37,598 nucleotides of DNA, taken from the NCBI RefSeq assembly GCF_015354405.1, contig NZ_JADKYP010000062.1, positions 1 to 37,598 of the forward strand, in the 5' to 3' direction. The position numbers were made by a program, and so were the translations under genes. Origin of the DNA: Nocardia sp. BSTN01 (lineage in GTDB: Bacteria > Actinomycetota > Actinomycetes > Mycobacteriales > Mycobacteriaceae). The notes below the pieces were generated by a model. It searched no databases. It saw only the letters and a program-made list of their open reading frames with translations, and was not told where the DNA came from. Within the stretch, counting starts at the first letter, position 1; every line of letters begins with the position of its first letter. Positions 15,147-32,934 of the stretch are shown one piece after another.

Positions 15147-15781
15147 CCGATCGCTTCCACCAACTCGGTGAGTGAGCCGACAACCCAGTCGGCCTCCTCC
15201 GCCGCAATGACGTCGTCTGCCCACAGATATCCCCACGGCCCGCGCCGGATCAGGGCACACCGCAGGCCGGCACGACGAGCCGGGATCAGATCGTTGTCTC
15301 GGTGATCACCCACGTACAGGATCTCGTCCCGGCGGCCGGGCGCAAACTCGGCAACGCGGTCAAAGAACGAAGAGTCCGGCTTCGCAATTCCCCACTCCCC
15401 CGAGGTCGCTATCGCGTCACAGGGAAGATCGAGCGCGCGAAGCAACTCGGCCGCCCGCGCCGTCTGATTGCCGGCGATACCCACCCAAATCCCACGCTTC
15501 TGCAAGACCGACAACGCAGGTCGCACGTCGGGATAAAGATCCCGCTCCCCGATACGCTCCGCACACCCAGCTGGCTCACGAAGTCGCCGCTCACGATCGA
15601 GATCGAACCCCGGTCGGAAGTACTCAAACGTCTCGGCATTGTTGCGGCCGGCAGCCGTCAGCGCCCCGAGCACGGCCGAAAAGGTATGGCGCGGAACCCC
15701 GATCCAGTCGGCCCAAGCCCCAAACTCGCAGGTGTCGTCGATCAGGGTCTCGCCGACGTCGAAAACGACCGCGCGAATCAA
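15143..15781 (-). CDS. HAD-superfamily hydrolase
   Basis: A 212-aa phosphatase-type HAD protein. Motif I is VVFDVGETLID, in which the general-acid Asp position (DxD/DxT) is Gly-Glu, giving DVGETL, a common variant in this clan. Motif II is GIAGNQTAR (Asn for the usual Ser/Thr), motif III the Lys in GIAKPDSSFF, and motif IV VGDHRDNDLIPA. A helical cap lies between about residues 20 and 90. The start is a TTG at 15781 preceded by AGGAGG seven bases away; an ORF extended upstream has no such site. Its last four bases overlap the end of the XRE pseudogene. The substrate is unknown. Confidence 0.9.
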   Translation of the reverse strand: MIRAVVFDVGETLIDDTCEFGAWADWIGVPRHTFSAVLGALTAAGRNNAETFEYFRPGFDLDRERRLREPAGCAERIGERDLYPDVRPALSVLQKRGIWVGIAGNQTARAAELLRALDLPCDAIATSGEWGIAKPDSSFFDRVAEFAPGRRDEILYVGDHRDNDLIPARRAGLRCALIRRGPWGYLWADDVIAAEEADWVVGSLTELVEAIG

Positions 15782-15960
15782 GTTCCAACCTCCTGACGGT
15801 GGGCTGCCGACAGACCCGCTCAGATCCGCGGAAGGGCCTGGTGCACTCCTCGAGATCGACTGCGTCGCGGCGGATCCGGTGCACTGTCGACCTAGAGCAT
15901 CCGCTCCGAGGACAGTGGGGGGCGAGCCGATCCGGCCCGGCATCTACCCCGGCGCATTAT

Positions 15961-17691
15961 TCACGACTGTGCGACGAACGCGCTGAAGAGTCCTGCGAAC
16001 TCCTCATCCTGTTGGTGCGTCCCGAACAGCAATGCGCGGTCGAGGTACGTGTTGTTCAGCTCGCACGAGGTCTCCGGCACCAGCACACATGCGTGACACG
16101 CGGCGAGGTTCAACGCGTCGGCCCCCGAGGCCTTCGACTCGATGCACACCGGGTCGGAGGAGCACCACGACAAGCGGACCAGCCCCTCGCGCAGCATGGT
16201 CGCGAACGTCTCGGGCGAGGCCTGCGAGGCCACGCCCCCGAGGCTGCCGGCCGAGTCCGAACTCGCCGTGTAGACGAGGATGCCCGCCATGTCGTCATCG
16301 ACGTAGAGCCGCTCGCGCAGCGCCGATGCGGGGTACCCCGCATCCAACGAGAGCTGGTCGATCAGAACGTGTGCGAGGGTGTGGACCGCCACCTGGACGA
16401 TGTCGACGGCTGGCGCCTCGCTGCGGCCGAAGACCTCGGCACGACGATCCGCCGCGGCCTGCAGCGAACATCGTCGGCCTGCGGCGAAGGGCTGCTTCGC
16501 CCAGTCCGCCAGCTTGTGCCGATCGAGTGCGAGGAAGACTCCCTCACCGATCACTTCGATTGCGGGAAGCCAGTTCCGGCTGTCAGCGGACAAAGTGCAG
16601 AGTCCCTCGGATCCCGGTTCGCGCGCCCCATCCAGTCGAGAGAACCCGAAGAGCGCCCGGACCTCGCGCAGCCGGGTGACCTTGCGGATCTCGGTGATCA
16701 GTCCCGGTACCGATGCGTCCTTCGCCATCGGCAGACAGACGAAGTCTGAGTCGATCCCAGTCTCCTCCTGACCGGAGATCAAAGCGGCGAACTCGTCACG
16801 GCGCAGGGCCTCCTCGCCGAGGTCGGACGCCTCCTCGGTCTCACGACGCCGCTCGATCTCGCGGGTGATGTTCTCGACGGAGAACCGTCCTTTCGACTTC
16901 TTCGCGAGGTTCTCGAGCATCTTGGCCGTGTAGGCCTCCGGGTCTCCCAGGAGCTCCCAGTGTCGATCGACGAACTTCGCCAGCGCCTCCGAGTACGGCG
17001 GGATCGAGATCGCCGAGCGCACTGCGGGGAACCAGACGTTCGACGCACCGCGCTGCAACACTCGCGGAACCAGCGAACAGTCTTCCGTCGCGTCGGGCCC
17101 CAACCACGGGCGTGCGCCCTGACAGGTCCCGAACTCGGCCAATGCCTTCGGCGCCACCGCACCGTCCAACGACTTCGGGCTCACCCCACAGCTGCACTCG
17201 AGCACCAGGTCTGCGAGCGAGGATGTGCGGCCGCGCGACTGCAGCTTCATCGCGTGCTTGGTCGCGGCCGGTGCCACAGTGCCCTTGTGGAGCCAACGGT
17301 AGTAGGGGAATTCATCGATGTGCCCCTTCGTGCAGGCGGTGATGAGCCTGAACGGCGAGAGCAGCGACTTCTCCTTGCACTGCGCACACTTCGCGACGTT
17401 CCAGTCCTTCGCTAGGTCATACAGCGAGCCGATCCGGCGGCACGAGGGACACACCTGGGTCACCGGGAATCGGATGACCGGGACGTCCCGCGGCGTGCCT
17501 GCCGGCGGCACCTTCAACTCGGCAACGCGCAGCGAACGGGCTAGGCGCGGCTCGCTGACGGTGTTCGCGCGCTGCTCGTTCCAGTAGTCGAGGCCCACGA
17601 TCATGTAGCTCGTCGTCTCCGACGGGAAGAGCCCGCCGATCCCGTAGGTGCTGAGAAGTTGACCCCTGCGGGCCTTCGCTCCGGTCGTCAT
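15961..17691 (-). CDS. drmB: DrmB-like DUF1998 protein of a DISARM-related defence system
   Basis: A 576-aa protein. The opening RRGQLLSTYGIGGLFP is typical of DrmB. A zinc ribbon follows: CPSCRRIG (about residue 85) and CAQCKEK (about 102), then CSCG near 165. The DUF1998 core is at about 435-520: AVHTLAHVLIDQLSLDAGYP, ALRERLYV, AGILVYTASSDSAGSLGG, then Cys clusters CIES and ACHACVL. In DISARM, DrmB forms a complex with the DrmA helicase and helps recognise foreign DNA. The ATG at 17691 overlaps the drmA stop as ATGA. It is the last gene of the operon; no phospholipase D gene (drmC) follows within the 180 nt before the HAD gene. Confidence 0.88.
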   Translation of the reverse strand: MTTGAKARRGQLLSTYGIGGLFPSETTSYMIVGLDYWNEQRANTVSEPRLARSLRVAELKVPPAGTPRDVPVIRFPVTQVCPSCRRIGSLYDLAKDWNVAKCAQCKEKSLLSPFRLITACTKGHIDEFPYYRWLHKGTVAPAATKHAMKLQSRGRTSSLADLVLECSCGVSPKSLDGAVAPKALAEFGTCQGARPWLGPDATEDCSLVPRVLQRGASNVWFPAVRSAISIPPYSEALAKFVDRHWELLGDPEAYTAKMLENLAKKSKGRFSVENITREIERRRETEEASDLGEEALRRDEFAALISGQEETGIDSDFVCLPMAKDASVPGLITEIRKVTRLREVRALFGFSRLDGAREPGSEGLCTLSADSRNWLPAIEVIGEGVFLALDRHKLADWAKQPFAAGRRCSLQAAADRRAEVFGRSEAPAVDIVQVAVHTLAHVLIDQLSLDAGYPASALRERLYVDDDMAGILVYTASSDSAGSLGGVASQASPETFATMLREGLVRLSWCSSDPVCIESKASGADALNLAACHACVLVPETSCELNNTYLDRALLFGTHQQDEEFAGLFSAFVAQS

Positions 17692-20600
17692 CGCTTCCTC
17701 TTCATTGGAATCGCGTAGAGCCCACTCTCGGCGTCGACCTCACGCATGCTCATCATCGTTGGCCAAGGAACGTCCTGCTGGGAGTACTCGATGTCCTCGT
17801 CGGTCAACGCGACCGACGGATCGACGAGCAACGAGGCTTCGAGGTTCTTCGCGTTGCTGTACCGCATGTTCGGCCGCGCCTCACCCGCCTCCGACCACAC
17901 GTCCAACAACTCGTGCACCTGCTCGACCGTGCCCTCGCGCTCCTGCTCGGCATCCTCATCCAAAGGAACCGCCGGGTTCGTAAGCACCGCCTTCGCCCGC
18001 TCGCCGATGATGTCGGCGACCTTACACAGGTCGTCCCAGTTGTCGGCGGCGAGATACGCGGCGGTGTCCGGAGCGAGCTCCGGTACGAGCAACCGTGCGA
18101 GCGAGACCAGCACCCCGTGCAACCCGCGGTCGCGCGCCCTGGCCGCGAACGGCGTCGCGCTAGTAGCTTCGACCGCCCGGTACAGCGCCTGGTGATACGG
18201 GACGAAGCTCTCGTAGTGCGAGCGGTCTCGGGAACGGGCGGCATTGAAGATCGTGACCACGAGACCGGGGAACTTACGGCCCACGCGGCTGGTCGCCTGA
18301 ATATATTCGGAGCTCGACTGCGGCTGTCCCATCACGGCCATGAGACCGAGCCGGTCGATATCGACACCTACCGAGATCATGTTCGTGGCCAGCACCACGT
18401 CGTCCGGTTTCCCCGTCGACAGCGCCACTTCGAGCTTCTTGAGGCGTTCGGGAATCTCCGATGACGGGACGCGGCTGGTCAGCTCATTGACCGGTTCGAG
18501 CTTTCTCGTCTCCGTGCCCTTCCTGTTGGCCACTACCTGCAGCCGTTCACGTACGTCGCCCTCGACCTGCAGATTCGCACTGCCGAGGACCCGTAGGCTG
18601 TTGAAGTAGCCGAGCAGTGTCCAGTAGGGGTCCCGCGTGTCGTCATCGCCGTCGATGTCCTTCGCCGCCTGTAGAAGAGCCGCGTAGACGCGCACCAGCA
18701 GGGTCGCGTGGCTCGACCCCGGCGACATGACGCCTACGTATTGGCGGGTGCCCTGCGTCTCGGGCGGTGCAGGCTCAGCGAAGAACGACTCGTCGGGGTT
18801 GATCCCAGGCGGTGGGAACTGTGCCGCGCTGCGTGCGAACACCGATCGGATCTGCTTCTCCGCCCGCCGGATCGTCGCCGTCGACGCGATCACCTTGGGC
18901 CGGCCGCGATCCGCTACTTCTTCGAGCGGGTCTGACGAGCATGCGGCGTCGACTGCGGTCTCGTACAGCCCAACCATCGAACCGAGCGGGCCCGAGATCA
19001 GGTGCAGTTCGTCCTGGATGATCAGGTTCGGCGGGTGTCCGATCCCGTCACGAGCGAAAAGCTTGCGGACGTCCTCCCGCCAAGCCATCGCCGCGAACTT
19101 GTCGACGGTACCGAGAATGAGTTCCGGTCGCGCCCGATAGACGTCCTCGTCGACGACATGGACCGGCAGACCATCCTTGAAGTCGCAGTCGGCCGTGCCG
19201 CAACGGATCTGAAGCTGCTCCTCCGGAGACCTCACAACCCGATAGTTGGCGTGGTCCATCATCGCGCCGCACCACGGACACTGTGTCAGCTGGACCGGGT
19301 TCTTCGACTGAAGCTCGCGGCCCGACGCCAGATCACGGAGCGACTTGCGAGCCTCCGCAAGCGTGTTCGGGGTGCCGCCCTGTCCCACCCACAGCCCGAT
19401 CGAAAACGGCCGACTCCCGATGCCGGAGTCGCCCGTGCGCACCGTCTCGAGGGAGCACATCAACATCGTCGCCCGCTCGAACTGCTGAATCGTCAACAGC
19501 CGCAGGGTGTACCGCATGATCACGCCGACGCCCTGCGCCTCGGGATCGAGCAGTCGTCGGTGCAGGATGGAGAACGCGACAAGGCCCAGATACGCCTCCG
19601 TCTTGCCACCACCTGTCGGGAACCACAGCAGGTCCGCGATCTCGCGGTCCGGATGATGCCGGTCGACCAGCCCAGGGAGGTTCAGCAGGATGTAGGCGAT
19701 CTGGAAGGGGTACCAACGGTCCCCCACCCCATCGCCCACCTCACCCTTCCCGCCGCTGCGGACCCAGTCCTGGCGTGCGCGTTGTAGCTGCATCGCCTGG
19801 TTCGCCAGCCGGAATGCGCGCATGCTGATCGGGTCCGACTCCAGCAGGTCGATCCCGGATTCGATCCGGCCCGCGGCAGTCCGGGCGTACTCGATATGGC
19901 GCCGAGCGGTGCCGAGCAGGGCGTCGCGCACATCGGCTTCACCTGAATCCAGGCCGCTCGCAAGCTGTTCGATCCACTCGCGGTAGCGCGTCGTCAACCC
20001 CCGCAGGCTCGCGACGACCTCCGTGTCCGTCGCGGTCGCCAGGAAAGACATCCGCAGGTCGACCGACTCGTCCAGGAGACCCGGGCGGGCGCGGGCGACC
20101 TCCAACGTCGGGAGGAATGTCGTCGCGACGCGATCCACGGCCTCCGAGTAGGTGCTCGTGTCCCAGTCCACGGCGCACCCGTGCCCGATCGCGAACGTCC
20201 GCTTGTTCCGATACAGCAACGCCGATGTGTCGAGGTCTTCGTCGCGTCCGACGTTCACGTGCCCGGAGCGGTCGACGATCGCCGGCACCGCAGTCGAGAC
20301 GGTGAGCCCCACCTGGAACCACGCCTTGTCGTCCCGGAGCTCGCCTTTCACCGGCACACGCGTGTTCCGCAGCGCCATCGACACGGTGGTGACCCCATCA
20401 CGCGGCGGCCGCACATACACGTACAACTCGAGACCGTCGGCGATCTCACCCGGACTGCGCACTCCCGGCTGCACGACGGACACCTTCACCGGCTTCAGGT
20501 TCAACGGAACGCGCCGCCAGTCGCTGGAACGGCCTCTCTTCTTGGTGTTTTCCATCGGCTCACCGTCGGCGTCGACGACCACGTAGCTCGCGCCTGCGAC

Positions 20601-20924
20601 CAGGACCGAGACCTCGCTCGCGTCCGCGAGCCGGACGGAGAACGTCAAGCCCACCGAGGATGGGTACCGCATCAACGCCTGTGCGACCGGGCTGTCATCC
20701 GACGCAGACGAGTCTTCGGCGTCGGCACCGTCGGGTTCTGGGGTCTCCTGCTGCAGGCCATCACCCGGCCACAGTGTGCCGATGATGTAGCGATCGAGTG
20801 GCGCTTCGGAAATGATCTCGTGTTCTCCGTCGCCCGGGCCCACCACGTCTCGGGCCAGCTCTTCGACCATCTCGTTCCTGAAGCGGTACTTCTCGTCCAA
20901 CGACGCCCCCTGAGCAGAGTTCAC
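17688..20924 (-). CDS. drmA: DrmA-like SF2 helicase of a DISARM-related defence system
   Basis: A 1078-aa protein. The N-terminal 400 residues are non-helicase and contain LARDVVGPGDGEHEIISE, a feature of DrmA. The helicase core has Walker A WFPTGGGKTEAYLG (about 435), motif II IIQDELHLISGPLGS (about 635), ASTATIRRAEKQIR (about 690) and, in lobe two, VLATNMISVGVDIDRLGL then SSEYIQATSRVGR (about 850-890). A zinc ribbon (CPWCGAMM with a later C-x4-DC) is inserted after the Walker A lobe. The start is GTG 20924: GGAGGAG lies upstream and GTGA overlaps the preceding stop. It probably translocates on DNA with DrmB. The length is close to known DrmA proteins. Confidence 0.88.
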   Translation of the reverse strand: MNSAQGASLDEKYRFRNEMVEELARDVVGPGDGEHEIISEAPLDRYIIGTLWPGDGLQQETPEPDGADAEDSSASDDSPVAQALMRYPSSVGLTFSVRLADASEVSVLVAGASYVVVDADGEPMENTKKRGRSSDWRRVPLNLKPVKVSVVQPGVRSPGEIADGLELYVYVRPPRDGVTTVSMALRNTRVPVKGELRDDKAWFQVGLTVSTAVPAIVDRSGHVNVGRDEDLDTSALLYRNKRTFAIGHGCAVDWDTSTYSEAVDRVATTFLPTLEVARARPGLLDESVDLRMSFLATATDTEVVASLRGLTTRYREWIEQLASGLDSGEADVRDALLGTARRHIEYARTAAGRIESGIDLLESDPISMRAFRLANQAMQLQRARQDWVRSGGKGEVGDGVGDRWYPFQIAYILLNLPGLVDRHHPDREIADLLWFPTGGGKTEAYLGLVAFSILHRRLLDPEAQGVGVIMRYTLRLLTIQQFERATMLMCSLETVRTGDSGIGSRPFSIGLWVGQGGTPNTLAEARKSLRDLASGRELQSKNPVQLTQCPWCGAMMDHANYRVVRSPEEQLQIRCGTADCDFKDGLPVHVVDEDVYRARPELILGTVDKFAAMAWREDVRKLFARDGIGHPPNLIIQDELHLISGPLGSMVGLYETAVDAACSSDPLEEVADRGRPKVIASTATIRRAEKQIRSVFARSAAQFPPPGINPDESFFAEPAPPETQGTRQYVGVMSPGSSHATLLVRVYAALLQAAKDIDGDDDTRDPYWTLLGYFNSLRVLGSANLQVEGDVRERLQVVANRKGTETRKLEPVNELTSRVPSSEIPERLKKLEVALSTGKPDDVVLATNMISVGVDIDRLGLMAVMGQPQSSSEYIQATSRVGRKFPGLVVTIFNAARSRDRSHYESFVPYHQALYRAVEATSATPFAARARDRGLHGVLVSLARLLVPELAPDTAAYLAADNWDDLCKVADIIGERAKAVLTNPAVPLDEDAEQEREGTVEQVHELLDVWSEAGEARPNMRYSNAKNLEASLLVDPSVALTDEDIEYSQQDVPWPTMMSMREVDAESGLYAIPMKRKR

Positions 20925-22741
20925 GAGATCTCCTCCATGATCGACCAATCCGGCTGTGCCAGACCGACAATTCGGGGTGCGAGCCAGAGCCCACACGAAC
21001 CCACGTCGGCGTCCCGCGACTTACGGGGGTCTCCGCCCACGGTCTCCACCGATACCAACGACATTCCCGACAGGATCGCAGGCCACGACCCACCGCGCAG
21101 ACCGAACGCTTTCACGAAAGCTTCGTTGAACGAGTCGCTGGTGCGCCCGACCGATCGTCCGTCCTCGGTCGTGAGGAGATACGAAGGCAGCTCGGAGGTC
21201 GACTGCTCGGTGTCCAGGCTCGCCAACACCCGGGCACCGACGAGGTCGTCCGCACCGAGCGTTTCCTGGACGGTCATCGCATCGAATCCCTCGACATAAG
21301 CCGGGAAGTCCACTGCGACGTCCGTGTACTGGAACTCGACGGCCCGCGTCCGTTTCGTCTTCGGATTCCGATTCGGCACGCGTTCAAGGAGCCGGCCAGG
21401 AAGCCAGTGCATCTCCTTGTAGACCGCATACGTGCGCGGCAGTTCGCAGAGGAAGATCTTTTCCCGCGCCCTGCTCAAGGCAACGTACTGTGCACGCACC
21501 GACGCCCACGCGTCCTCATCGTCTCGTTCATATGACCGATCAACGATGAACACTCGGTCGAACTCGAGTCCCTTCGCTCGATGGACGGTCGAGACGATGA
21601 CGTTGCTCAAATCGGGCTCGGTCAAGGTCAGGGGAACGGTGCCCGACGTGACCAGGTTCCTGATGCGCGAGATGTTGAGGGCGTCGCCGGTGGAGCGCCG
21701 TGAGTTCTCGGCAGACTTCAGCAGGTACCAGGCGTCCTCGCCGATCTCCTTGCCGAGCACCTGCTCCAACGCCTCCTCGGCTTCCGACCGTCGGACGTCC
21801 GGACCGTCGAGAGGCCCGAGTGCCTGTGCGATCCACCGCGCGGCACCGAAGTCCTGCGCGCGACGCCGGACGGCATGCGCGATTCCGTTGTTGTTCAGGT
21901 ACTTCGACACTCGGAGGACCTCACCGTTCGTCGTACACAGCACCGCCGTGCGCACGCCCTTGAAACGGAGCATGTCCGCCCATTCTTCGATGTCCTCGAA
22001 CAGTGGCAGGTCCTCGACGAACTCGTCGAGCACGCGCTGAGCTTCATGCGCATCAGTCAGGCCACGTAGCCGGTCCCCCAGCTCGACGACCTTTTTCGGT
22101 TGCTTTCCCCGTGCGCGGTAGTTCCGACCCAAGCTCAGCGTCGCGGTACCGAACTCGTCCTTCAATGCGGCGAAGACGTCGCTCGAAGAGGTCTTGCTCT
22201 GCGACTCCGCCAACTGAAAGTCGTAGATTCCCTGGAGCGGGTCCCCGAGCACCGTGAGCCCTGCATCGGGATCCAGCCTGCGCAAGATCGCGAGCACGAA
22301 GTCCGCGCGGTCGCCGACGAGGTCCTGCACCTCGTCGATCACGACATGACGGAGGTCCTCGACCTCGAACGGCGTCTCCTCCGCTTTCTCCAGGATCTTG
22401 GTGGCCTGTCGGATGCGCGCCTCAAAATTCCCCGCCGGTTCCACGTCCGCGCCGATCAGGATTTGACCCGCGAAGGAGTCGAACGTGCGTACGTTCGCCG
22501 CTGCCACTTCCCGTAGGTCGAGACGCGTCCGGACGGCGGTCACCGCCGCCCGCGAGAAGCTCAGCACCAGGATCTCCGTCGACGCGGAGAGGTACTCCTC
22601 CTCGACAAGGTGACCGATCCGCGCGGCCACCACCTCTGTCTTGCCCTGTCCGGCTCCCGCGATCACGAGGAGTCGCCGGTCACCAGGGGACTCGACGACC
22701 TCCCGCTGAGCATCGTCGAGCTCCAACGGCGCATTCACCAC
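20921..22741 (-). CDS. UvrD/PcrA-like SF1 helicase in the defence operon
   Basis: A 606-aa SF1A-type helicase. The motifs are complete and in order: Walker A VIAGAGQGKTEVVAARI (about 25-40), Ia-like LSFSRAAVTAVRTR, motif II VIDEVQDLVG (about 138), motif III TVLGDPLQGIYDF (about 168), NYRARGK, motif V VSTVHRAKGLEFDRV (about 385) and motif VI YVALSRAREKIFL (about 422). It is shorter than PcrA and lacks 2B-type bulk, and the C-terminal 150 residues are unlike PcrA. It is not part of the standard DISARM gene set but overlaps drmA by GTGA. The start is GTG 22741 or 22738 behind GGAG; ATG 22795, coupled to a leader ORF, is a longer option. Confidence 0.9.
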   Translation of the reverse strand: MVNAPLELDDAQREVVESPGDRRLLVIAGAGQGKTEVVAARIGHLVEEEYLSASTEILVLSFSRAAVTAVRTRLDLREVAAANVRTFDSFAGQILIGADVEPAGNFEARIRQATKILEKAEETPFEVEDLRHVVIDEVQDLVGDRADFVLAILRRLDPDAGLTVLGDPLQGIYDFQLAESQSKTSSSDVFAALKDEFGTATLSLGRNYRARGKQPKKVVELGDRLRGLTDAHEAQRVLDEFVEDLPLFEDIEEWADMLRFKGVRTAVLCTTNGEVLRVSKYLNNNGIAHAVRRRAQDFGAARWIAQALGPLDGPDVRRSEAEEALEQVLGKEIGEDAWYLLKSAENSRRSTGDALNISRIRNLVTSGTVPLTLTEPDLSNVIVSTVHRAKGLEFDRVFIVDRSYERDDEDAWASVRAQYVALSRAREKIFLCELPRTYAVYKEMHWLPGRLLERVPNRNPKTKRTRAVEFQYTDVAVDFPAYVEGFDAMTVQETLGADDLVGARVLASLDTEQSTSELPSYLLTTEDGRSVGRTSDSFNEAFVKAFGLRGGSWPAILSGMSLVSVETVGGDPRKSRDADVGSCGLWLAPRIVGLAQPDWSIMEEIS

Positions 22742-22796
22742 GACGTCTCCATCACCTCGATCGATCGGGAGATGGACTCGGTCGTGTAGCCGCATC

Positions 22797-22844
22797 TCAC
22801 GCCGCCGAGGTCGACCGTCGATCCTTCGTCGCCGGATTCCACAT
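22797..22844 (-). CDS. Possible 15-aa leader peptide ahead of the uvrD-like gene
   Basis: MWNPATKDRRSTSAA starts at an ATG with TAGGAG five to six bases upstream. Its TGA is followed after one base by an ATG in the frame of the helicase gene. The arrangement suggests translational coupling, or may be chance. It bears on the choice of helicase start. Confidence 0.25.
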   Translation of the reverse strand: MWNPATKDRRSTSAA

Positions 22845-23188
22845 ATGTTCTCCTACGCACCGACAGAAGTCGCATCCGAGGGGCAATCTCACGCCCGACG
22901 CATGACGCGACAGCGGCGCGCTCAGCTGACAAGCAACCCCGTCGCGCCGCGGTCACGGCAGATGATCGCATCATTCAGTCTCCTCGTCGGCCGCACAACT
23001 GTGACTCCGTGTCCACGTAAAACGAGGCGGCAGAACACCTCTGACGTCGGGCACCGAGCCCACGAACATTGCCACATCAGCGTCGCCAGCGCAGTCGTTC
23101 AACCGATCTACACGTCGCTCGATGCCACCACATCGAAGACAACGTCACCCCTCGTCGGTCGATGAGTCCACCCCGGGGCGCTGGGCTG
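22845..23188. other. Noncoding gap inside the defence operon
   Basis: There are 344 nt between the stop of the GHKL-helicase gene and the leader ORF, much longer than any other gap in the operon. No supported ORF or clear hairpin is visible. It may hold a second promoter that sets drmA, drmB and the uvrD-like gene apart from the first two genes. Confidence 0.4.
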
Positions 23189-26100
23189 TCAGGCGGTGTC
23201 GGTCGCGCCCTCCGTATCGATCTCGCTCTCGATGATCTCCTTGAGACTGTCGAAGACGATGCTGTCCTCGAACTCGACGAGGTTGTCGAGAACGTTGACG
23301 ATCAGTACTTCGTCACTACCACCGTTCTTCGGACCTCGAAGGCCGCGACCGACCATCTGCATGTACCGGACCTCGCTGCTGGTCGGTCTGGTGATATAGA
23401 CGGCACGGGTTGCAGGCGCATCGAAGCCCTGCGACAGCACCGCATAGTTGGTGAGCACACGGAGAGCACCGGACTTGAACCGCTCGATCGCCGACCGCCT
23501 GTCTTCCGGACTGGTGTCCTGGTCGATCGAGGCCGCCGGCCTGCCGGACAGGGTGAGCAAGGTGGCGATCGTCTGCGCACTCTCGACAGAAGCCGCGAAG
23601 ACGACGATCGGCCAGTCGTCAGGTTTGCTGAGAATCGACTCGATGATCGTTCGCGTCCGATCCTCGTCCCGCCCGAGTCGTCTCGCCGCATCGCCCGGGA
23701 GCCAGTACTTTTCGCGGAAGTGCTGGATTTCGTGCTCCGCCAGCTCGACCGACACGCCTTTGAGGATTTCGATGCTCGCGCGGGCGAGGATCCGATCCCG
23801 CTGCAGGCGCACCTGCGGATGTTCGTTGCCGAAAACCCCCTCATCGAGCAGATTCTCGTCGAACCTGCGCAGCAGGCGGTGTGTCTCGTCACTGTCACGC
23901 TTCCCGCGGAACGGTGTCGCCGTCAGCCCGAGCAGGAGCTTGTCGCGCTGCGCGTGACCGCGTCCCGTCCATTCCAGGATCTTCGTGTACGACGCGTGGA
24001 GCGCGCCGTGCGCCTCGTCGATGACCACCAGGGGGCAGGCGGCCAACCAGGCATAGTCCGCCTTTTCTACCGCGCGGCTCATCACCTTCTGCCAACTGGC
24101 CACCACGACCTGGACCCCGCCGCGCTCCTCTTCGGTCTCATAGTTCGCCCAGAACCGGCTCAGCACCAATTGGGTGTCCTGCCGCCCCTTCGCACGCCAC
24201 AGGTACGACCACGCGTCGATCGCCTGTTCGCACAGCTCCTCTCCGTCGGCAAGCCACAACACGGGCCCCGAGAAGTGGCCGTCCGCGCCATCCAGCGACC
24301 CGCTTTCGATCGATTCGATGATCGTCTGGACCGCGACGCGCGTCTTCCCCGCACCGGTGGGAAGCGAGATGATCCCCCTCGAAGGCCCGTCGCCGGCCAG
24401 CATCGCACCGAGGCGCTTCGAGACAGTCTCCTGATAATCGTGGAGCGGCTTCAACTGTGTCGGACCGTCCACGTACTCGGTGGGCTTGTTGCGCTTCCGC
24501 GTCTTCTGCCCAGCCCACTCTTCGCCGAAACCCAGGTCCTGCACCCATTTGCGCGTGTCGTACGAACCGTGCCACGACTTCGGCGGCGTTCTCGGAAGGC
24601 CGTGCGGATCCACCTTGCAGGCACGCTCCAATGCCCGGATGCCGAGCATGGTGATGCACAGGCGCGCCAGATCTACCCCCGTCGGCTCTCCCGACCTCGA
24701 GTGGGCCAGGTAATCGAACGCATCCTTCGGTATCAGGGTCTTCAAACGGTCGTCGCCGGCGAACGCAAGCAGCCGCGACGCGTCGTCCGGGGCCTTTCTG
24801 ATGCTGCGGATCAGCTTGGTGTTCCGCTTCCGCTCCATCCGGTCGAGAAGCGCATCCACACGTTTGTCCGTGGAATCCAACATCAACGTGCTCAAGACCT
24901 GCTTCAGCACATCTCTTTCATGGTTCCCGGTGACCAGCAGCACATTGCCGTTGCGCGCGCATGTGCAGCCCACACGCACCTCGGGTTGTCCCGGCACGGC
25001 AGCGACCTTGCTGATGGACAGGCACTTCTGCAGGGTCAGTTCTTCCGGGTCCTCGTCGAGTTCCAACTCGTCGAACACGTCGAACACGTCCGTCAGGCAC
25101 ACCGGTTCAGCGCTCGTCTCGTACGAATAGTCCACGGGCAGTTCATTGCCCGCGACGCATCCCCACAGTTCTGTGAGGTTGTAGACGTCATCTGCGCTGT
25201 CGACCGTCACGCACGGGATGCCGAACGAGTCCAACTCGGCGGCGGACTCACGCGACATGACGATCGCCACGGTCGAACGCGGTGCCGTGCACCAGGTTCC
25301 GTTTCGGAGCACCCAGAGTTCCTCCGGCGCCGAATCCTGATGAGTGTGACACCACCATGCATAGATACGACCGACTCGCTCGACGTCGCCGCGACTGGCA
25401 TGTACCTTTGCCAGCTCTTCGAACTCAGCCGGCGACAGCGACCCGATATCCCGCCTCAGCTGCAGCGCCGACTCCATGTCGCCGCTCAACACGAGTTGAT
25501 TCAAACAGGGCAGAAGCCCCTCGAGTTCGTCGCTGTCGACGTCAGATGCAAACACACGGCCGATCGACATCGGTCCGAGCGTGGTGGGCAGCCGGCCATG
25601 TTGTCTCAGCCACCAGAGTTCCGGCGCAACGTATTGAGCCGCGCCGGTGGCCACGGAAGAGTGCGTGACACGCACACGAGGGGAGTGCATCTCCCCGAGT
25701 ACGGCCACCGTCAAGGCCGTACAGTTCGTCGGGCTGAGGCGCGGAAGGTTCTCGAGCGGGCCCAACAAAGAATCGATCGACTCGATCCGAAGGTTCTCGC
25801 GTGCTTGTACACCGAGTTTCATGTACTCACCGACCGATGACTTTACCGCGGCACGATACTTCGCGACCCAGTGTTCATGGGCGTGCGCCGGGCTGCGGAA
25901 CGGCCTACCCCGCACCCCGAGCAGTGCCAGGATCTCCCCGTCGGCCGCGTGGTAACCACTGTCGACCAGAAACTCGCCGTCCTCCTTCAGCGGTTTGAGA
26001 CTGCCCCCGGCCGTCATGAGATCTGCCGGGAGAACCCATTTCCCGCGGCCGTCTTTCACGTGGACGAGTTGTGCAGCGTGCCCGTCCAGCACCTGTTCGA

Positions 26101-27898
26101 ACGCTTCACCCACGCGGCGTTCACCAGACCCTCGCATGGCAATCCAGATGCGGTCCCAATCGACATCCGTGGTCTTACGCAGGTCCGCGAGCAGCTGAAG
26201 CATTTCGCCACCGTCCTCGAACGGTGTGATGCCGAGGTGCTTCAGCGCATCGAGCGCACCGATGCGCGTCACGACGTCCTCGTGGACGAACACCGCACCA
26301 TCTTGTTCGGCGCTCGTCCGGATGAAACAACGCCCGGGCGCCGGCTGCTGCAACGTCCCGTTTTCGAGCAGGACGATCTTGGCCTCACGTGCGTCGAGCT
26401 CCATGTTGGAACCCATCGCCACGAGGCTGGCTGCAAGCTCGATCGCCACAGCGGACGCCTCCGGGTTCGGCTCGGCGACGACGTCTTCGAGCCAGTTGAG
26501 CACCCGACCGGTCTTTGCCAGGTTTTCCTGCATCAGGCGATCAACCTTCGACCGCCGCTCAGAACTCGTCGTGCAGTCCGGGTGTACCCATGAGGCCCTG
26601 TTGCCCACCACCTGGGTCCATTTGTCGGTAAGCCCAGTAACGCTGTCCGGCACGCGCTTCAGAGAGTTCGGTGAACGCATCACGCCATCGAGGTCCGGTA
26701 GACAACGCGCATCTCGTAGCGCGTTGTAGACCGGCTCGTTGAGCACCGAATCCGCCCAGCTCCGGTTCTCTTTCCCGCGGGCCGGAAGCACGTCGATGTA
26801 GCGACCAAAACTCCCGCCCGCCACTAGTTCTCGTCGGGATTCGACAACTAACTTCGGCAACACCGTAGTAAGGATTTCGTAGTTGAAGGCGCACTCGATC
26901 ACATTGATTCTGTCGTCGGAGAGCTTCCAGGGCGCATTGACCCGACCGCTCAGGGTGATGTCCGACTTCACAGGGAAGAACGCACTCAGCTGGCCGATTC
27001 CCACCCGACCGGTGACCGGTACAGCCCAGCTCACCTGTACCGAGTCGCGCCGTGCGGCGTGACCGGCGGACTCCAACGCGGCTTCGGATGGCAAGTGGTC
27101 ACACGAGATCACCAGCCATTCGCGGTCTCCCTCTTCCGTCGTGAGCGTGACTCGGTTACCCAGTTTTCGGGCTTTGAAATGGCGCTCTTCACCCGCGATG
27201 TCATTACGCAAATCGAGCTGGCGGACGTGGGGCGCGAACAAGTTGAAGGACTCGTCGAATTCGGCGATCTCCTCTGCCAGCTGCCCTGACGTGCCCGGCT
27301 TGAGTGGAATCTTGACGATTGTGGTGGCCCAGCTCGACAGATCAGCCAAAACAGCGTCCGAGTGCAACTCCCTCGTCGAGTCGACGATCGCCCACGCCAG
27401 GCGAAGTGAGGGCACCTCTTCGGGCGTGAAATGCCGGCCCAGCTCATCGGAGAGTTCCGTAGCGGTCTGCGCCCTGCTGAACTCGAAAGAAACGGATCGA
27501 CTGAAGATCTGCGGGCCATCTGAGATTCCGCTGATCGACTTGAAGCCCAAGCCGAATCGTCCGATCTCCGCACCCGTCTTGTTCGACAGGTGGGTGTACA
27601 GCAGAGCCCGAACACCGGTGTCCTCGAACGGTCGGCCTTCGTTCGCCACATAGAGCGCATCGCTGGTAAGCACGACCTGAATGCGTCCCGGGGAGCCCTG
27701 CAGAGCATCTGCCGCGTTCTGAATGAGCTCTTGGATCTGCTTGCGACCGTATCCGCCTTCAGCGATCCCGCGTTCTTTGCCGGCGTCTTCTTCCACGCGA
27801 TTCGAGTCCTGTTTGTAAACCGCGATACAGCGCGCGTGGAAATCGTCCACCATCCCGACCAACGCCTGGTCAGGGTTTCCCCAAGACTCGCCTGTCAC
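23189..27898 (-). CDS. GHKL (sacsin-like) ATPase fused to an SF2 helicase
   Basis: A giant 1569-aa protein. Residues about 40-130 form a GHKL (Hsp90/MORC/sacsin-type) ATP site: IQELIQNAADALQG (Asn box), LYVANEGRPF, ALLYTHLSNKTGAE, GRFGLGFKSISG. About 1000 residues of middle region follow with no motif I recognise. From about 1165 there is an SF2 helicase: ISLPTGAGKTRVAVQTI (Walker A), LVVIDEAHGALHAS (DEAH), LLGLTATPFRGKR, VVFAASVESAQTIA, LTNYAVLSQGFDAPATRAV and YMQMVGRGLRGPKN (motif VI), like type III restriction or Ski2-related translocases. No nuclease domain is visible. The start is GTG 27898 (GGAGG six bases upstream), not the ATG at 27916. It is expressed just after the 79-aa gene. A sensor-plus-motor role is inferred. 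Confidence 0.88.
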   Translation of the reverse strand: MTGESWGNPDQALVGMVDDFHARCIAVYKQDSNRVEEDAGKERGIAEGGYGRKQIQELIQNAADALQGSPGRIQVVLTSDALYVANEGRPFEDTGVRALLYTHLSNKTGAEIGRFGLGFKSISGISDGPQIFSRSVSFEFSRAQTATELSDELGRHFTPEEVPSLRLAWAIVDSTRELHSDAVLADLSSWATTIVKIPLKPGTSGQLAEEIAEFDESFNLFAPHVRQLDLRNDIAGEERHFKARKLGNRVTLTTEEGDREWLVISCDHLPSEAALESAGHAARRDSVQVSWAVPVTGRVGIGQLSAFFPVKSDITLSGRVNAPWKLSDDRINVIECAFNYEILTTVLPKLVVESRRELVAGGSFGRYIDVLPARGKENRSWADSVLNEPVYNALRDARCLPDLDGVMRSPNSLKRVPDSVTGLTDKWTQVVGNRASWVHPDCTTSSERRSKVDRLMQENLAKTGRVLNWLEDVVAEPNPEASAVAIELAASLVAMGSNMELDAREAKIVLLENGTLQQPAPGRCFIRTSAEQDGAVFVHEDVVTRIGALDALKHLGITPFEDGGEMLQLLADLRKTTDVDWDRIWIAMRGSGERRVGEAFEQVLDGHAAQLVHVKDGRGKWVLPADLMTAGGSLKPLKEDGEFLVDSGYHAADGEILALLGVRGRPFRSPAHAHEHWVAKYRAAVKSSVGEYMKLGVQARENLRIESIDSLLGPLENLPRLSPTNCTALTVAVLGEMHSPRVRVTHSSVATGAAQYVAPELWWLRQHGRLPTTLGPMSIGRVFASDVDSDELEGLLPCLNQLVLSGDMESALQLRRDIGSLSPAEFEELAKVHASRGDVERVGRIYAWWCHTHQDSAPEELWVLRNGTWCTAPRSTVAIVMSRESAAELDSFGIPCVTVDSADDVYNLTELWGCVAGNELPVDYSYETSAEPVCLTDVFDVFDELELDEDPEELTLQKCLSISKVAAVPGQPEVRVGCTCARNGNVLLVTGNHERDVLKQVLSTLMLDSTDKRVDALLDRMERKRNTKLIRSIRKAPDDASRLLAFAGDDRLKTLIPKDAFDYLAHSRSGEPTGVDLARLCITMLGIRALERACKVDPHGLPRTPPKSWHGSYDTRKWVQDLGFGEEWAGQKTRKRNKPTEYVDGPTQLKPLHDYQETVSKRLGAMLAGDGPSRGIISLPTGAGKTRVAVQTIIESIESGSLDGADGHFSGPVLWLADGEELCEQAIDAWSYLWRAKGRQDTQLVLSRFWANYETEEERGGVQVVVASWQKVMSRAVEKADYAWLAACPLVVIDEAHGALHASYTKILEWTGRGHAQRDKLLLGLTATPFRGKRDSDETHRLLRRFDENLLDEGVFGNEHPQVRLQRDRILARASIEILKGVSVELAEHEIQHFREKYWLPGDAARRLGRDEDRTRTIIESILSKPDDWPIVVFAASVESAQTIATLLTLSGRPAASIDQDTSPEDRRSAIERFKSGALRVLTNYAVLSQGFDAPATRAVYITRPTSSEVRYMQMVGRGLRGPKNGGSDEVLIVNVLDNLVEFEDSIVFDSLKEIIESEIDTEGATDTA

Positions 27899-27939
27899 CG
27901 TATTCCTCCGCTTCATAGCCCATCGGTCCGAGGCCGCCG

Positions 27940-28179
27940 TCAGTCCAACTTGTGGTCGGGATGCAGACCGGCATACCAGGTCTCGTAGTTGTCGATAACG
28001 ACCGCTCGAGGCCCCTGCAGCTCCTTGATGCGGACCATGTCGGCGTCGTACCGCTCGAGAATCCGCTTGATGATGTCCTCCGGCGCCAGCAACGACAGTT
28101 TCTTGACCGCTTCCGCCGGTGTGTACTTGTCCAAGATCGACTTGAACACGTCGTACTGATCATCGATCAGATCGTCCAC
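27940..28179 (-). CDS. Small helical protein, first gene of the defence operon
   Basis: A 79-aa charged, helix-rich protein starting MDDLIDDQYDVFKSILDKYT and continuing AEAVKKLSLLAPEDIIKRIL. It has no signal peptide, membrane segment or known motif, and the Leu/Ile spacing fits a helical bundle. The start is a GTG at 28179 with GGGAG six bases upstream; an ATG at 28212 lies before that site and is rejected. Only 41 nt separate it from the giant ATPase-helicase gene, so the two are surely co-transcribed. It could be an adaptor, an antitoxin-like control protein or a subunit of the large complex. I do not recognise the family. Confidence 0.7.
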   Translation of the reverse strand: MDDLIDDQYDVFKSILDKYTPAEAVKKLSLLAPEDIIKRILERYDADMVRIKELQGPRAVVIDNYETWYAGLHPDHKLD

Positions 28180-28779
28180 CCGACACTCCCTGCCACTCAC
28201 GTCACGCCGCATCCACCGACGCGGCCCGCTGGCGATTCAGGCTGTCCCTCGCGGGGCGCGTACTCCGGTGCTCTCTCCAACGGGAATAGTACAAACGAAG
28301 CATTGCGTTACGGTCTCTCTCGCTGTGTGGGACCCGGCGCACCCCCAAAGGCCGAGGGCGGCATATTCCACCAGGTCAACGCATCCCAATGCCGGTCGCC
28401 AGCGGCTCGGTTGAGCGAGTCGATTCCGCAACACACAACCTGGGAACACATTTGGACGTCGGTCTGTGCCCGGTAGTGCCGGTGGTGAGGTGCCGGCGAC
28501 TCGAGCCGGTGGTGCCCGTCAGTGGTGGCGCCGCTCGAAGAACTACAAGCGGGGCCGACCAGGTGGGAGACAAGCAGCCGCTCCGGACGCAGGGCCGTGG
28601 GATGGAATGGAATGGCGTCCTGGTAGCAACAGGCCGACGGGTTGATGCAGAGCCGAGCAAGTGCCGGAATCAGCTGTGCGCCAAACGGTTCACGACTTCC
28701 ACGATGCGTTGGACCCAATCTGATGCCGGAACTTCGCTATCCTGAATCTCAACGCGCACGGCGGTTAGAAGGGGCATCG
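28180..28779. promoter_or_regulatory. Divergent intergenic region between the helicase operon and the methyltransferase genes
   Basis: About 600 nt with no convincing gene. It must hold the two divergent promoters. Candidates are TACTAT on the minus strand (28291-28286) and TATCCT on the plus strand (28738-28743), both -10-like without clear -35 partners. A short minus-strand ORF ending at 28670 runs into the methyltransferase start and is not supported. Confidence 0.35.
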
Positions 28780-29772
28780 ATGAAAGACGTCGGTCAGCGC
28801 CTGCGCTCATTGGAAGTATGTGCCGGAGCAGGCGGGATGGCGCTCGGTCTGGAGCAGGCAGGTTTCGATCCGGTTGCTCTGGTGGACAATCGAAATGTCG
28901 CCTGCGCCACACTGCGGGCGAACCGACCGAAATGGGTTGTTGTCGAGAGGGACCTGCTGACAATCGATCCGCAGACCGATCTGCCGCTGGACGGTGATCT
29001 GGACCTGCTGTCGGCCGGCTTGCCGAGGGTGCGATCTTCGGCAACAACGTCACGCACCAGGGGCGACAACCTGGAACTCGAACTACTCGAAACCGTCGGG
29101 CGTTGGGTCGGGAAGCTTCGTCCGCGGGCCGTGCTGTTGGAGAACGTCCCCGACCTGGTATCTCGCTCCGGGTATGCCGAAAGCCGTTCGTATGTAGAGA
29201 AATATCTCGACGCGGCTGGCTACCAGTTCAGTTGGCGTGTGGTGAACGCCTGCTATTTCGGTGTGCCACAGCACCGGGAACTCGGGATACTCGTCGCTTT
29301 CCGGGACGGCGGGCTCAGCGAGTTCGACGCTGGACTGGATGCAGTGCTACCGACACCACACTTGTCGGTCGGCGCCGTTCTCCGGACATCGATGGCCGCT
29401 CGAGGTTGGTTGCAAGCCAATGAATGGGCGACGTTTGCCGATAGGCTCGCCCCGACCATCGTCGGTGGTTCCTGGGACCGCGGTGGCGCAGATCTGGGCC
29501 CTGCGGGGTCGCAGCGAGCTTGGGCGCGGTTGGGTGTCGAGGGAAAATCACTGGCCGATGCCCCTCCTGCGCCCGACTTCCAATGGAACCCCCAGTTCGC
29601 CGAAAGAAAGGTGCGCCTTACGGTCGGGCAAATCGCTGAGCTGCAAGCGTTCCCTGGCTACTGGCAGATCTGCGGACAGAAGACAGCTCGCTATCGTCAG
29701 ATCGGGAATGCTACGCCTCCGCCCGCGGCCCAAGCCTTGGGACGAGCAGTGCGTACCGGATTGGGTTGCTGA
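28780..29772 (+). CDS. C5-cytosine methyltransferase-like protein lacking the catalytic cysteine
   Basis: A 330-aa protein of the DNA (cytosine-5) methyltransferase fold. SAM motif I is SLEVCAGAGGMALGLEQAGF (residues 10-29), motif VI is AVLLENVPDLV (about 117), motif VIII is QHRELGILVAF (about 164), and motifs IX/X are LQAFPGYW and YRQIGNATPPPAAQALG. Motif IV should read G(P/F)PCQ but reads SAGLPRVRSS: the attacking Cys is Arg and the Gln is Val. The DNA there is unambiguous (TTG CCG AGG GTG). The recognition region is short. ATG 28780 follows AAGGGG. It is followed in the same direction by a second, intact methyltransferase, so a partner or DNA-recognition subunit role is likely. Confidence 0.85.
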   Translation: MKDVGQRLRSLEVCAGAGGMALGLEQAGFDPVALVDNRNVACATLRANRPKWVVVERDLLTIDPQTDLPLDGDLDLLSAGLPRVRSSATTSRTRGDNLELELLETVGRWVGKLRPRAVLLENVPDLVSRSGYAESRSYVEKYLDAAGYQFSWRVVNACYFGVPQHRELGILVAFRDGGLSEFDAGLDAVLPTPHLSVGAVLRTSMAARGWLQANEWATFADRLAPTIVGGSWDRGGADLGPAGSQRAWARLGVEGKSLADAPPAPDFQWNPQFAERKVRLTVGQIAELQAFPGYWQICGQKTARYRQIGNATPPPAAQALGRAVRTGLGC

Positions 29773-29803
29773 AGACCTCGGCCCAGCTGGCTATGCTCCA
29801 TTG

Positions 29804-30982
29804 GTGCCGAGCGAAGACCTGACCGACGCCAAAGAACGTGCCGACACTGTCGACCTGTTCGCGGGCCCCGGCGGTCTCGATGTTGCCGCGCGATGGCTCG
29901 GCCGCGAGGTGTACGGTCTCGAATGGGATATCGACGCCTGCCGCACCCGAAAGGCCGCAGGCCTCAACTTCGAACGTCACGATGTGCGCGATCTCGGTCC
30001 GGAAAACTTCCCTGCCGCAACGATGTTGATGGGCGGTCCGCCCTGCCAAACCTTCACTGTCGCGGGGAACGGAGCAGGCCGGCGAGCCCTGGACACGGTG
30101 CTGAAGTTCATCATTGCGATGGCGGCCGGAGAATCGGTCCAGGAAGAACTGGCGCAGTTGGAAGACGAACGCACCGGCCTGGTTCTGGAACCGTTGCGCT
30201 GGGCGCTGCGAGCAGCCGAACTCGGTCGTCCGTACCGGACGATCGTGCTGGAGCAAGTCCCCGCAGTCCTCCCGGTGTGGGAGGCGATGGCAGAAGTGCT
30301 GCGAGACAAACTGCAGTACCGAGTCCAGACCAAAGTGCTGCACACCGAGATGTACGGAGTACCGCAGACCCGCCGTCGCGCGGTTCTCATCGCTTCGATC
30401 GACGGGACACGGCCGATGCCACAGCCGACCCATCAAATTTACCGTAAAGCTGGGCTGCGGCCCACAGACAACCATCGGTTACCGAAGTGGAAAACCATGG
30501 CCGACGCCCTTCCGGATAGACGCGAAACCTTTCGGGTGATCTCGAACTATGGCACAGGCGGGGACCCCAAGCTGCGTGGCGTTCGCAAATCAGATCAACC
30601 GTCCGCGACGGTCACCGGCAAAATCTCCCGGAACAAGGTCGTCACGAACGGGCAGACGGATAGGTTCAAAGATGCGGAAGCCGGCCGCCTGCAAAGCTTT
30701 CCATTGGACTACCCATGGCAAGAAGGAGCGGTTGCGCAGCAAATCGGCAACGCCGTTCCGCCGATCTTTGGGCTTCATGTCCTCTCGGCCGCACTCGGGT
30801 GCCAAGTCACCAGAGAGCAGGCCGATAAGATATTCGAATTGGAGTGGGCCGACGTGCAATGTAAGAAGCCAGAAAAACTTCCCGCCGTTGTAGCGGAACT
30901 TCACGAACGCATCCGGTCCGGAGCCGGTAACGCCGCAGCGCTTCGGGACGACGGCGTCGATGAGTACGTCATGGACCAATGA
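29804..30982 (+). CDS. C5-cytosine DNA methyltransferase with intact PPCQ motif
   Basis: A 392-aa methyltransferase. Motif I is TVDLFAGPGGLDVAARWLG (from about residue 12), motif IV is LMGGPPCQTFTVAG with the catalytic Cys (about 77), motif VI is IVLEQVPAVLP (Gln where Asn is usual), motif VIII is QTRRRAVLIAS, the recognition region spans about 210-290, and motifs IX/X are RLQSFPLDYPW and QIGNAVPP. About 70 extra C-terminal residues follow motif X. The start is uncertain: GTG 29804 or TTG 29801 just before the conserved part, or ATG 29708, which overlaps the previous gene. It probably methylates cytosines to protect host DNA from the helicase complex, as DrmMII does in class 2 DISARM. Confidence 0.87.
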   Translation: MPSEDLTDAKERADTVDLFAGPGGLDVAARWLGREVYGLEWDIDACRTRKAAGLNFERHDVRDLGPENFPAATMLMGGPPCQTFTVAGNGAGRRALDTVLKFIIAMAAGESVQEELAQLEDERTGLVLEPLRWALRAAELGRPYRTIVLEQVPAVLPVWEAMAEVLRDKLQYRVQTKVLHTEMYGVPQTRRRAVLIASIDGTRPMPQPTHQIYRKAGLRPTDNHRLPKWKTMADALPDRRETFRVISNYGTGGDPKLRGVRKSDQPSATVTGKISRNKVVTNGQTDRFKDAEAGRLQSFPLDYPWQEGAVAQQIGNAVPPIFGLHVLSAALGCQVTREQADKIFELEWADVQCKKPEKLPAVVAELHERIRSGAGNAAALRDDGVDEYVMDQ

Positions 30983-30989
30983 GGCTTAT

Positions 30990-31770
30990 TCGGCGGCGTC
31001 GGTGACATAGCAGTCCAGTGGTGTCAGTGATGGTTTCCTCGAAGGTTGCCTGGGGGCGGCGGTAGTCGGTATGGAGGATGCGCCATGGTTTCCAGGTGGG
31101 CGATGACGCGTTCGACGACCGTGCAGCCCGTTGACGTCGGAGTCGTAGTGGGCGTCGGATTCGGGCAGGTCGCGGCCTTTCGGTTTCTTGACTCGTGTGA
31201 TCATCCCGGAGCCTTGATATCCCCTGTCCTTCAGCAGTTTCGAGGGCCGAGTCCGTCGAGCAGCCTGGATGCGGCCAGTGCCGCCACGTCGTGGTCGCGG
31301 CCATCGACGGGGCCGGAGATCCAGATTGGGTTGCCCTCCAGATCGTAGAGGACCTGCACGTTCAGGCCCGTCGTCTTGTGCTTGCTGGAGAATAATTGCC
31401 GATGGTGGCCCAGGTCCAGCACTGCAGCAGGGTGCCGTCGAGGATGTAGCTGGCAGCCGGTCGATCGTCGGCGACAGGTATCTGCTCGGCGAGCGCAGTG
31501 CCGATAAATGGCGTGATCGCCGTAATTGCCCGGCTGGCGGTGGGCCGCGAGGCGCCGAAGGATTCAGTTCATGCTGGACCCGGTTGCTTCGCAGGTAGGC
31601 CAGGGTTACACACACGCTGCGGCGCAGCCCAGGCTCGGTGGCCACGTCCGTATCGCTTCGCATCCGCGGTGGATGATCGCGACCAGGTCGGTGATCTCGT
31701 TGGTGGTGAAGCCGATAGTATGGCACATGCGCTGCGGTCTTCGTCTGCGGAACCTTTTGTAGCAGAATGA
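30990..31770 (-). pseudogene. Decayed IS5-type transposase (DDE_Tnp_4 group)
   Basis: Transposase pieces lie in order on the minus strand but in several frames: an N-terminal part with GFTTNEITDLVAIIHR, VTLAYLRSNRVQHEL, then HKTTGLNVQVLYDLEGNPIW with SGPVDGRDHDVAAL, KLLKDRGYQGSGMITRVKKP, and WRILHTDYRRPQATFEETIT. The order and motifs match IS5-family elements with the pfam13359-type endonuclease. At least four frameshifts make it dead. No terminal inverted repeats could be fixed. It ends only a few bases past the second methyltransferase gene, marking the edge of the defence island. Confidence 0.8.
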
Positions 31771-31910
31771 TTTCGCGGTGCGCAGGGGCGCCACCCGCGC
31801 TGCGACACAACTCCTGTGACCGTTACGTCCGCCTCTAGGAATCGGTAACCGAACGTTGCGGAGCCAGCGGGCGAGCAGCCATCCCGAGCACGGTCGAAGG
31901 CCACACTCAA

Positions 31911-31927
31911 GCCGCTGAGTAAGCGGC
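31911..31927 (-). terminator. Hairpin after the possible small gene at 31930
   Basis: GCCGCT-GAGTA-AGCGGC is a perfect 6-bp stem just past the stop of the minus-strand ORF at 31930-32127. It gives that ORF mild support. Confidence 0.4.
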
Positions 31928-31929
31928 CT

Positions 31930-32845: not shown

Positions 32846-32850
32846 AAGTC

Positions 32851-32934
32851 GGATTTGCCTGGTATTTAGCCGATCCTGACGGTCAACTGTTCGAGATCGC
32901 GTGGGACTCTGGCGCGCCCAACGCCGAACGCTGA
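32851..32934 (+). pseudogene. C-terminal fragment of a glyoxalase/VOC-family protein
   Basis: On the plus strand the frame reads GFAWYLADPDGQLFEIAWDS and ends GAPNAER before TGA. This is the classic last strand of vicinal-oxygen-chelate proteins with the metal-binding Glu. Nothing upstream continues the domain; the sequence changes into the antisense of the cut Uma2 gene. Together they mark a deletion or insertion junction. Confidence 0.6.

Follow-up and report, generated by a model that had tools for sequence, protein, structure and literature searches.

A DISARM-like locus of Nocardia with GHKL-SF2 and UvrD-type motors beside DrmA and DrmB: a probable class of its own

Introduction

Class 1 DISARM is made up of drmD, an adenine methylase, drmA, drmB and drmC, and class 2 of drmMII, drmE, drmA, drmB and drmC. 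The locus described here shares part of these sets and lies in Nocardia sp. BSTN01, on a contig (NZ_JADKYP010000062.1, assembly GCF_015354405.1) of which 37,598 nucleotides (nt) make up the window, that is, the whole stretch of DNA that was analysed; the source genome measures 7.79 Mb, and the window lies in contig 166. In this locus DrmA and DrmB stand in a row with a UvrD-fold SF1 helicase and with a GHKL ATPase fused to an SF2 helicase (GHKL-SF2), and two C5-methyltransferase homologues, M1 and M2, are encoded in the opposite direction. We infer a defence role for the cassette, and the locus is probably a DISARM-like anti-phage (anti-foreign-DNA) system that forms a class of its own.

DrmAB of Serratia is autoinhibited and loads onto DNA with a 5' overhang; methylated DNA stimulates it less (PMC9142583). 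ARMADA type II consists of a one-piece YprA helicase, BrxHII, PglX and an SF1 protein bearing a RelE domain (PMC12458937).

The cassette and its core proteins

The cassette and the methyltransferase pair are arranged as follows:

15961..17691, minus strand: DrmB, a DUF1998/MZB protein of 576 amino acids (aa), recognised by NCBIfam
17688..20924, minus strand: DrmA, an SF2 helicase of 1078 aa, recognised by NCBIfam; its GTG start overlaps the SF1 stop
20921..22738, minus strand: SF1 helicase with a UvrD fold, 605 aa long if the GTG at 22738 is its start, recognised by Pfam, a structure model and fold matches
23189..27916, minus strand: fusion of GHKL (sacsin/SMCHD1/Hsp90-type ATPase and transducer) with a RadD-like SF2 helicase, 1575 aa
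28780..29772, plus strand: M1, a C5-methyltransferase homologue without the catalytic Cys, 330 aa
29708 (ATG) or 29804 (GTG)..30982, plus strand: M2, a C5-methyltransferase with intact motif IV (GGPPCQ), recognised by Pfam DNA_methylase

Overlaps of 4 nt (GTGA, ATGA) link SF1, DrmA and DrmB at each junction, much as a first, sequence-only reading of this DNA had described for the DrmA- and DrmB-like genes and the UvrD-type helicase coupled to them. The GHKL-SF2 fusion that it had placed upstream is there as well, with a length of 1575 instead of 1569 aa. The open frames of DrmA and SF1 extend to 20996 and 22795, respectively.

The same reading had proposed a check of both core proteins against profiles. 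DrmA scores 1001 bits against a curated NCBIfam cut-off of 950, and DrmB 460.6 bits against 240; both also match (E 4e-175 and 1.1e-69) their counterparts in Serratia, whose DISARM complex is solved. In 91 of 91 rows, DrmA keeps the core residues of Walker A, DELH and motif VI (QxxSRxGR), and DrmB its zinc cysteines C510, C516, C532 and C535, whose spacing in the alignment equals that of Serratia C559/565/581/584 (PMC9142583). Of the 11 PADLOC families with a match to DrmA, none is Druantia DruE.

The alignment of DrmA with its Serratia counterpart begins at Serratia residue 143, leaving ~140 N-terminal residues without a counterpart; an EVE-like domain has been placed in this part of class 1 DISARM DrmA (PMC12458937). 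It also breaks across the Serratia trigger loop (residues 176-232). A 60-residue C-terminal piece of DrmA gave no match; the Val of an S-x-R-x-V motif, present in all 91 rows, is at most a candidate for the counterpart of the methylation-sensing V1296 of Serratia.

Comparison with described systems

With class 1 DISARM (the Serratia and Deinococcus type) the locus shares DrmA and DrmB as two overlapping genes, the conservation of motifs and zinc site, and DNA methylation nearby. It differs in having GHKL-SF2 and the UvrD-fold SF1 but no DrmC, DrmD or adenine methyltransferase, and in a DrmA that lacks the ~140 residues mentioned above and belongs to another clade. The likeness to class 2 lies in a C5-methyltransferase with DrmA and DrmB, whereas the genome has no DrmE or DrmC match, the methyltransferase genes are two (one of them Cys-less), and GHKL-SF2 and SF1 are added. 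Neither DrmC_I (PLD; NF038319) nor DrmE (NF038316) has a match anywhere in the genome at E<=0.01, and DrmD (SNF2-like; NF038317) is met at nine places in the genome, none on the window's contig and all below the cut-off. For the adenine methyltransferase DrmMI, the scanned locus proteins, which were named open reading frames (ORFs) and not all 198, gave C5-methylases only. The results for DrmC, DrmD and DrmE rule out class 1 and class 2 DISARM, and the claimed absence of drmC and drmD holds: the former has no match in the genome, the latter is not in the locus. An SNF2-type DrmD relative lies at G000:C66:115783-117603 of the same genome, with 365.8 bits against a cut-off of 610.

ARMADA type II resembles the locus in having a methyltransferase and a YprA-family helicase whose SF1 partner is GajB/UvrD-like (PMC12458937). 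Its helicase, however, is of one piece, with OB-CON-DUF1998, whereas here DrmA and DrmB are separate genes, GHKL-SF2 is added, and BrxHII, PglX and RelE have no match in the scanned locus proteins. The window SF1 shows no Pfam match to RelE and no room for it before residue ~25 of the open frame, near which the helicase domain begins; a RelE profile was not run separately. ARMADA is thus ruled out by gene structure and partners.

Tiamat offers a likeness of a different kind, a GHKL/sacsin-type N-terminal domain: residues 23-423 of the GHKL protein match PADLOC TmtA at 4.4e-46 (model positions 13-416 of 1538). Only this N-terminal part matches, whereas in the window the GHKL part continues into an SF2 helicase and is coupled with SF1-DrmAB, so that a single Tiamat gene, with TmtA matched along its full length, was rejected. 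In p2MP, a 1096-aa GHKL protein is 32.5% identical over residues 12-780, and here too a GHKL ATPase goes with an SF2 helicase and a C5-methyltransferase.

Has this set been described under another name? The search covered the open-access literature, with subscription papers, supplements and Ofir 2018 outside its scope, and found no description of a GHKL-SF2/SF1/DrmA/DrmB set, nor one under inactive bacterial cytosine methyltransferases. A preprint mentions 'many uncharacterized DISARM-like' classes, a DISARM-like system is mentioned beside McrBC (PMC11090510), and in an actinobacterial defence survey the word DISARM does not occur (PMC10482375). NCBI annotates the genes of a Tsukamurella plasmid copy as 'helicase-related protein', 'DUF1998' and 'UvrD-helicase domain-containing protein'. 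The class looks to be without a name so far, although supplements may list the gene set.

Conservation of the cassette

Among 397 genomes of the same order scanned with GHKL-SF2, 21 (the window's included) carry it at full length, and many more match the GHKL part only. Twenty loci were fetched from 19 of these genomes, and DrmA and DrmB lie downstream of GHKL-SF2 in 19 of them, the exception being L043, at a contig start. A scan of named genomes, with patterns from a 21-row actinobacterial alignment, supplied another 80 loci; these, all from Actinomycetota, are the best 80 of 528 relatives. In the resulting 100 loci, all found through the GHKL protein, the order GHKL-SF2, SF1, DrmA, DrmB is kept in 93 (74 of the 80 named ones), or in 90 of 97 after removal of three recognised duplicates; the gene-order survey once suggested for this locus has therefore come out in favour of a conserved set. 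The SF1 is UvrD-type in 82 of the 93 and NERD-SF1 in 11, the latter assigned by Pfam NERD with UvrD_C_2 and by PADLOC RTasNERD-Hel with 'NERD+UvrD'.

The exceptions are of several kinds. L043, L093 and L118 are cut off by the limit of the fetched stretch or of the contig; at L089 and L114 no cassette follows GHKL; at L119 the script picked a second GHKL copy, while the cassette adjoins the first; and L132 has DrmA and DrmB with no SF1 recognised. Of the 93 loci that keep the order, 96%, 99% and 99% have genes that overlap or lie <=30 nt apart at the three junctions; these figures are drawn from longest open frames with approximate starts.

A search of 50,697 phage records gave no match for DrmA, one GHKL relative appeared in IMG/VR, at a contig end, and 15 plasmid records match GHKL, none across 80% of the protein. 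In G178, two cassette copies lie ~40 kb apart (L035, L040) and differ in their kind of GHKL (65% in one and 34% in the other, against the window), and DrmB of the second copy appears in two pieces. A divergent trio of a helix-turn-helix protein (700-750 aa), a 331-aa protein and a DUF6339 protein is found next to the cassette at 43-46 of the 97 loci, and is seen at L165-L169 too.

Starting from DrmA gives a wider picture. It occurs in 29 of 396 genomes of the phylum, and 30 DrmA loci were inspected: three with the four-gene set, one with SF1 but no GHKL, five with NERD-SF1 but no GHKL, 10 with class-1-type neighbours and 11 with other sets. This spread makes the GHKL-SF2 set one of several DrmAB arrangements.

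Phylogeny and module exchange

In a FastTree phylogeny of 120 DrmA proteins, the UvrD-type loci form one 83-tip clade (support 1.0), beside a class-1-type clade (0.991) and a NERD-type GHKL clade (1.0). IQ-TREE, run on 76 DrmA with the big clade thinned to one third and plasmid relatives added, supports the three clades with bootstraps of 100, 100 and 99. The window-type DrmA being a separate clade, the 'distinct DISARM-like branch' of the sequence-only reading fits. The deeper nodes, which bear on how the branches are related and on whether GHKL-SF2 was joined once or twice, are weak (38, 74).

A comparison of two relatives bears on how the parts travel. Against L066 (Prescottella), SF1, DrmA and DrmB of the window are 72, 78 and 78% identical and GHKL-SF2 35%; against L061 (Rhodococcus sp. 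HNM0569), GHKL-SF2 is 70% identical and SF1, DrmA and DrmB 30, 45 and 39%. These opposed values imply that the GHKL gene has been exchanged against the SF1-DrmA-DrmB backbone, a behaviour that would suit a part for sensing or specificity.

Could the locus, then, be two independent systems that defence-island accumulation has brought side by side, a DrmAB-SF1 module next to a GHKL gene of the Tiamat type? The TmtA match fits this, and two observations weigh against the reading of a single system: the GHKL gene was exchanged while its partners stayed the same, as at L066, and SF1-DrmA-DrmB exists without GHKL-SF2, at L148 and at L170 on a Tsukamurella plasmid. Although 82 of the 83 UvrD-type DrmA tips adjoin GHKL-SF2, with L148 the lone exception, L170 also falls inside this clade, and GHKL-SF2 is therefore a frequent and not an absolute partner. 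Chance accumulation is nevertheless improbable: order and spacing are fixed in 93 of 100 loci, overlaps occur at the GHKL-SF1 junction, and the same GHKL-SF2 fusion heads the cassette in both SF1 branches, UvrD-type and NERD-type.

Some of the other arrangements can be described here. L170 (5819-14913) holds a C5-methyltransferase, a 464-aa protein, SF1, DrmA and DrmB, the 464-aa protein (weak PADLOC PDC-S33) occupying the GHKL place. L171 and L172, on Azospirillum and Rhizobium plasmids and thus outside Actinomycetota, have an SF1 with a long N-terminus, DrmA, DrmB and a NERD helicase in a row, with no GHKL. L151/L162 (G562) has M1-M2, a 1252-aa ORF with no Pfam match, NERD-SF1, DrmA, DrmB and a second small SF1; the 1252-aa ORF is doubtful, with a 1198-aa ORF on the opposite side.

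The two additional motors

The GHKL residues of GHKL-SF2 are kept in 96 of 97 rows, the 97th being incomplete in that region, and the SF2 catalytic residues in all 97. The model of residues 1-1150 has a predicted local distance difference test score (pLDDT) of 88.1 and a predicted template-modelling score (pTM) of 0.54. The SF1 model matches UvrD/Rep/PcrA folds; the 624-aa SF1 frame has an additional C-terminal domain past ~residue 458. Among solved structures, RadD is the nearest to the SF2 half; like the repair functions of MrfA and UvrD relatives (PMC12458937, PMC2292703), this would suit a DNA-repair operon, with a YprA/MrfA-type helicase, UvrD and a MutL-like GHKL acting on damaged host DNA; this explanation is given little credence.

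As for nucleases, the SF1 C-terminus (458-624) gave no match and no motif is evident in the GHKL middle region, where Gly, Pro, Trp and hydrophobic residues, with few acidic ones, make up the invariant columns. Fold matches spanned 21-458 of SF1 and mainly residues 21-366 of GHKL-SF2, so that both parts were hardly covered; with that limit, no recognisable nuclease was found among the cassette proteins of the window branch. In the sister branch, the SF1 bears a NERD nuclease domain. The search for a toxin domain was likewise negative, which speaks against abortive infection, where GHKL-SF2 would sense phage DNA and the motors would destroy or stall the host chromosome too. GHKL/HATPase genes do occur in abortive systems (WonAB, PMC12137116), but the related ARMADA protects without killing (PMC12458937), and abortive infection is unlikely here.

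The methyltransferase pair

Two divergent C5-cytosine methyltransferase-like genes had been noticed from the letters alone; both are present and divergent, but one lacks the catalytic Cys. Motif IV of M1 is Gly-Leu-Pro-Arg, with PR in 40 of 41 rows, PS in one and PC in none, and in an alignment with DNMT1 the Arg sits opposite the catalytic Cys. The other motifs (ENVP, QxR, GNxxPP-like) are retained, and M1 is, to judge by its motifs, a catalytically degenerate methyltransferase. M2 keeps PPC in 54 of 54 rows (two loci counted twice); its PADLOC match to DrmMII (2.1e-16) is far exceeded by that to MTase_II (5.9e-77).

Both genes occur at 34 of the 80 named loci, M1 alone at five, M2 alone at 17, and neither in the fetched stretch at 24. 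Relatives of M1 at E<=1e-50 are found in 35 of 394 genomes of the class. At 31 such loci (30 of 36 places, the window included, and L173), motif IV reads PR in 11, PS in three and PC in 17, and since the PC loci are the more distant ones, the Cys was lost within the M1 lineage and the loss was kept. Because of its adjacency and conservation, M1 would be a partner of M2.

Small frames and flanking regions

The remaining features of the locus are these:

22735..22974, minus strand: 79-aa ORF between GHKL-SF2 and SF1, a doubtful gene, with a GTGA overlap with SF1
27940..28212, minus strand: 90-aa ORF
28213..28779: intergenic stretch that separates the units transcribed in opposite directions, from the gene coordinates

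Transcription on the minus strand thus follows the order 90-aa ORF, GHKL-SF2, 79-aa ORF, SF1, DrmA, DrmB, and the intergenic stretch presumably holds the promoters of both units. The 79-aa protein, listed in the sequence-only reading, is not supported as a gene, homologue searches having found none. A HAD gene adjoining DrmB (15143-15943) was rejected as a part of the system, with no match in the 20 fetched loci, as was a structured RNA, with zero Rfam matches at the gathering threshold.

Farther away, an 802-aa ORF (11595-14003, plus strand) without Pfam or PHROG match lies in a region of strong AT and GC skew; ARAGORN calls a tRNA-Arg (98 nt) inside it on the opposite strand (12169-12266, minus), possibly a false tRNA within a biased gene. 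To the right of M2, ~2 kb (30986-32940) contain ORFs with no profile match, and this stretch may be eroded or non-coding.

A possible mechanism

Taken at the level of sequence, the cassette is conserved and translationally coupled, its catalytic motifs are intact, and it is often accompanied by M2 and a Cys-less M1. The two motors, GHKL-SF2 and SF1, may functionally replace DrmC, DrmD and DrmE. MutL interacts with UvrD, a methyl mark guiding the choice of strand, and GHKL proteins in restriction operons have been proposed to loop DNA and to work with helicases (PMC2292703). By analogy, GHKL-SF2 could act as a clamp and translocase gated by ATP, loading or licensing the UvrD-like SF1, while DrmAB, if it behaves as in Serratia (PMC9142583), would translocate after loading onto unmodified DNA whose 5' ends are single-stranded. 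Incoming or replicating DNA without host 5-methylcytosine would be unwound by the three motors and its replication blocked; its destruction, if any, would be left to host nucleases in the window branch. M2 would write the self mark, and the non-catalytic M1 would tune M2 in target choice or activity.

In its boldest form, this would be a methylation-directed surveillance by three motors, in which a MutL/SMCHD1-like GHKL clamp-SF2 licenses the UvrD-type helicase and DrmAB on unmarked DNA, the active C5-methyltransferase that writes the mark is held by a conserved, catalytically dead one, the two corresponding in bacteria to DNMT3A with DNMT3L, and GHKL-SF2 serves as an exchangeable specificity module. 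This boldest form is tentative and rather unlikely.

Outlook

The extra subunits are the least understood part of DISARM. Here they are absent, and two other motors stand in fixed order across many actinobacterial genera, in a class overlooked by current names. The locus provides a testable route to the role of GHKL ATPases in restriction-type defence, and M2 and M1, two bacterial C5-methyltransferases of which one is active and the other Cys-less, are open to biochemistry.
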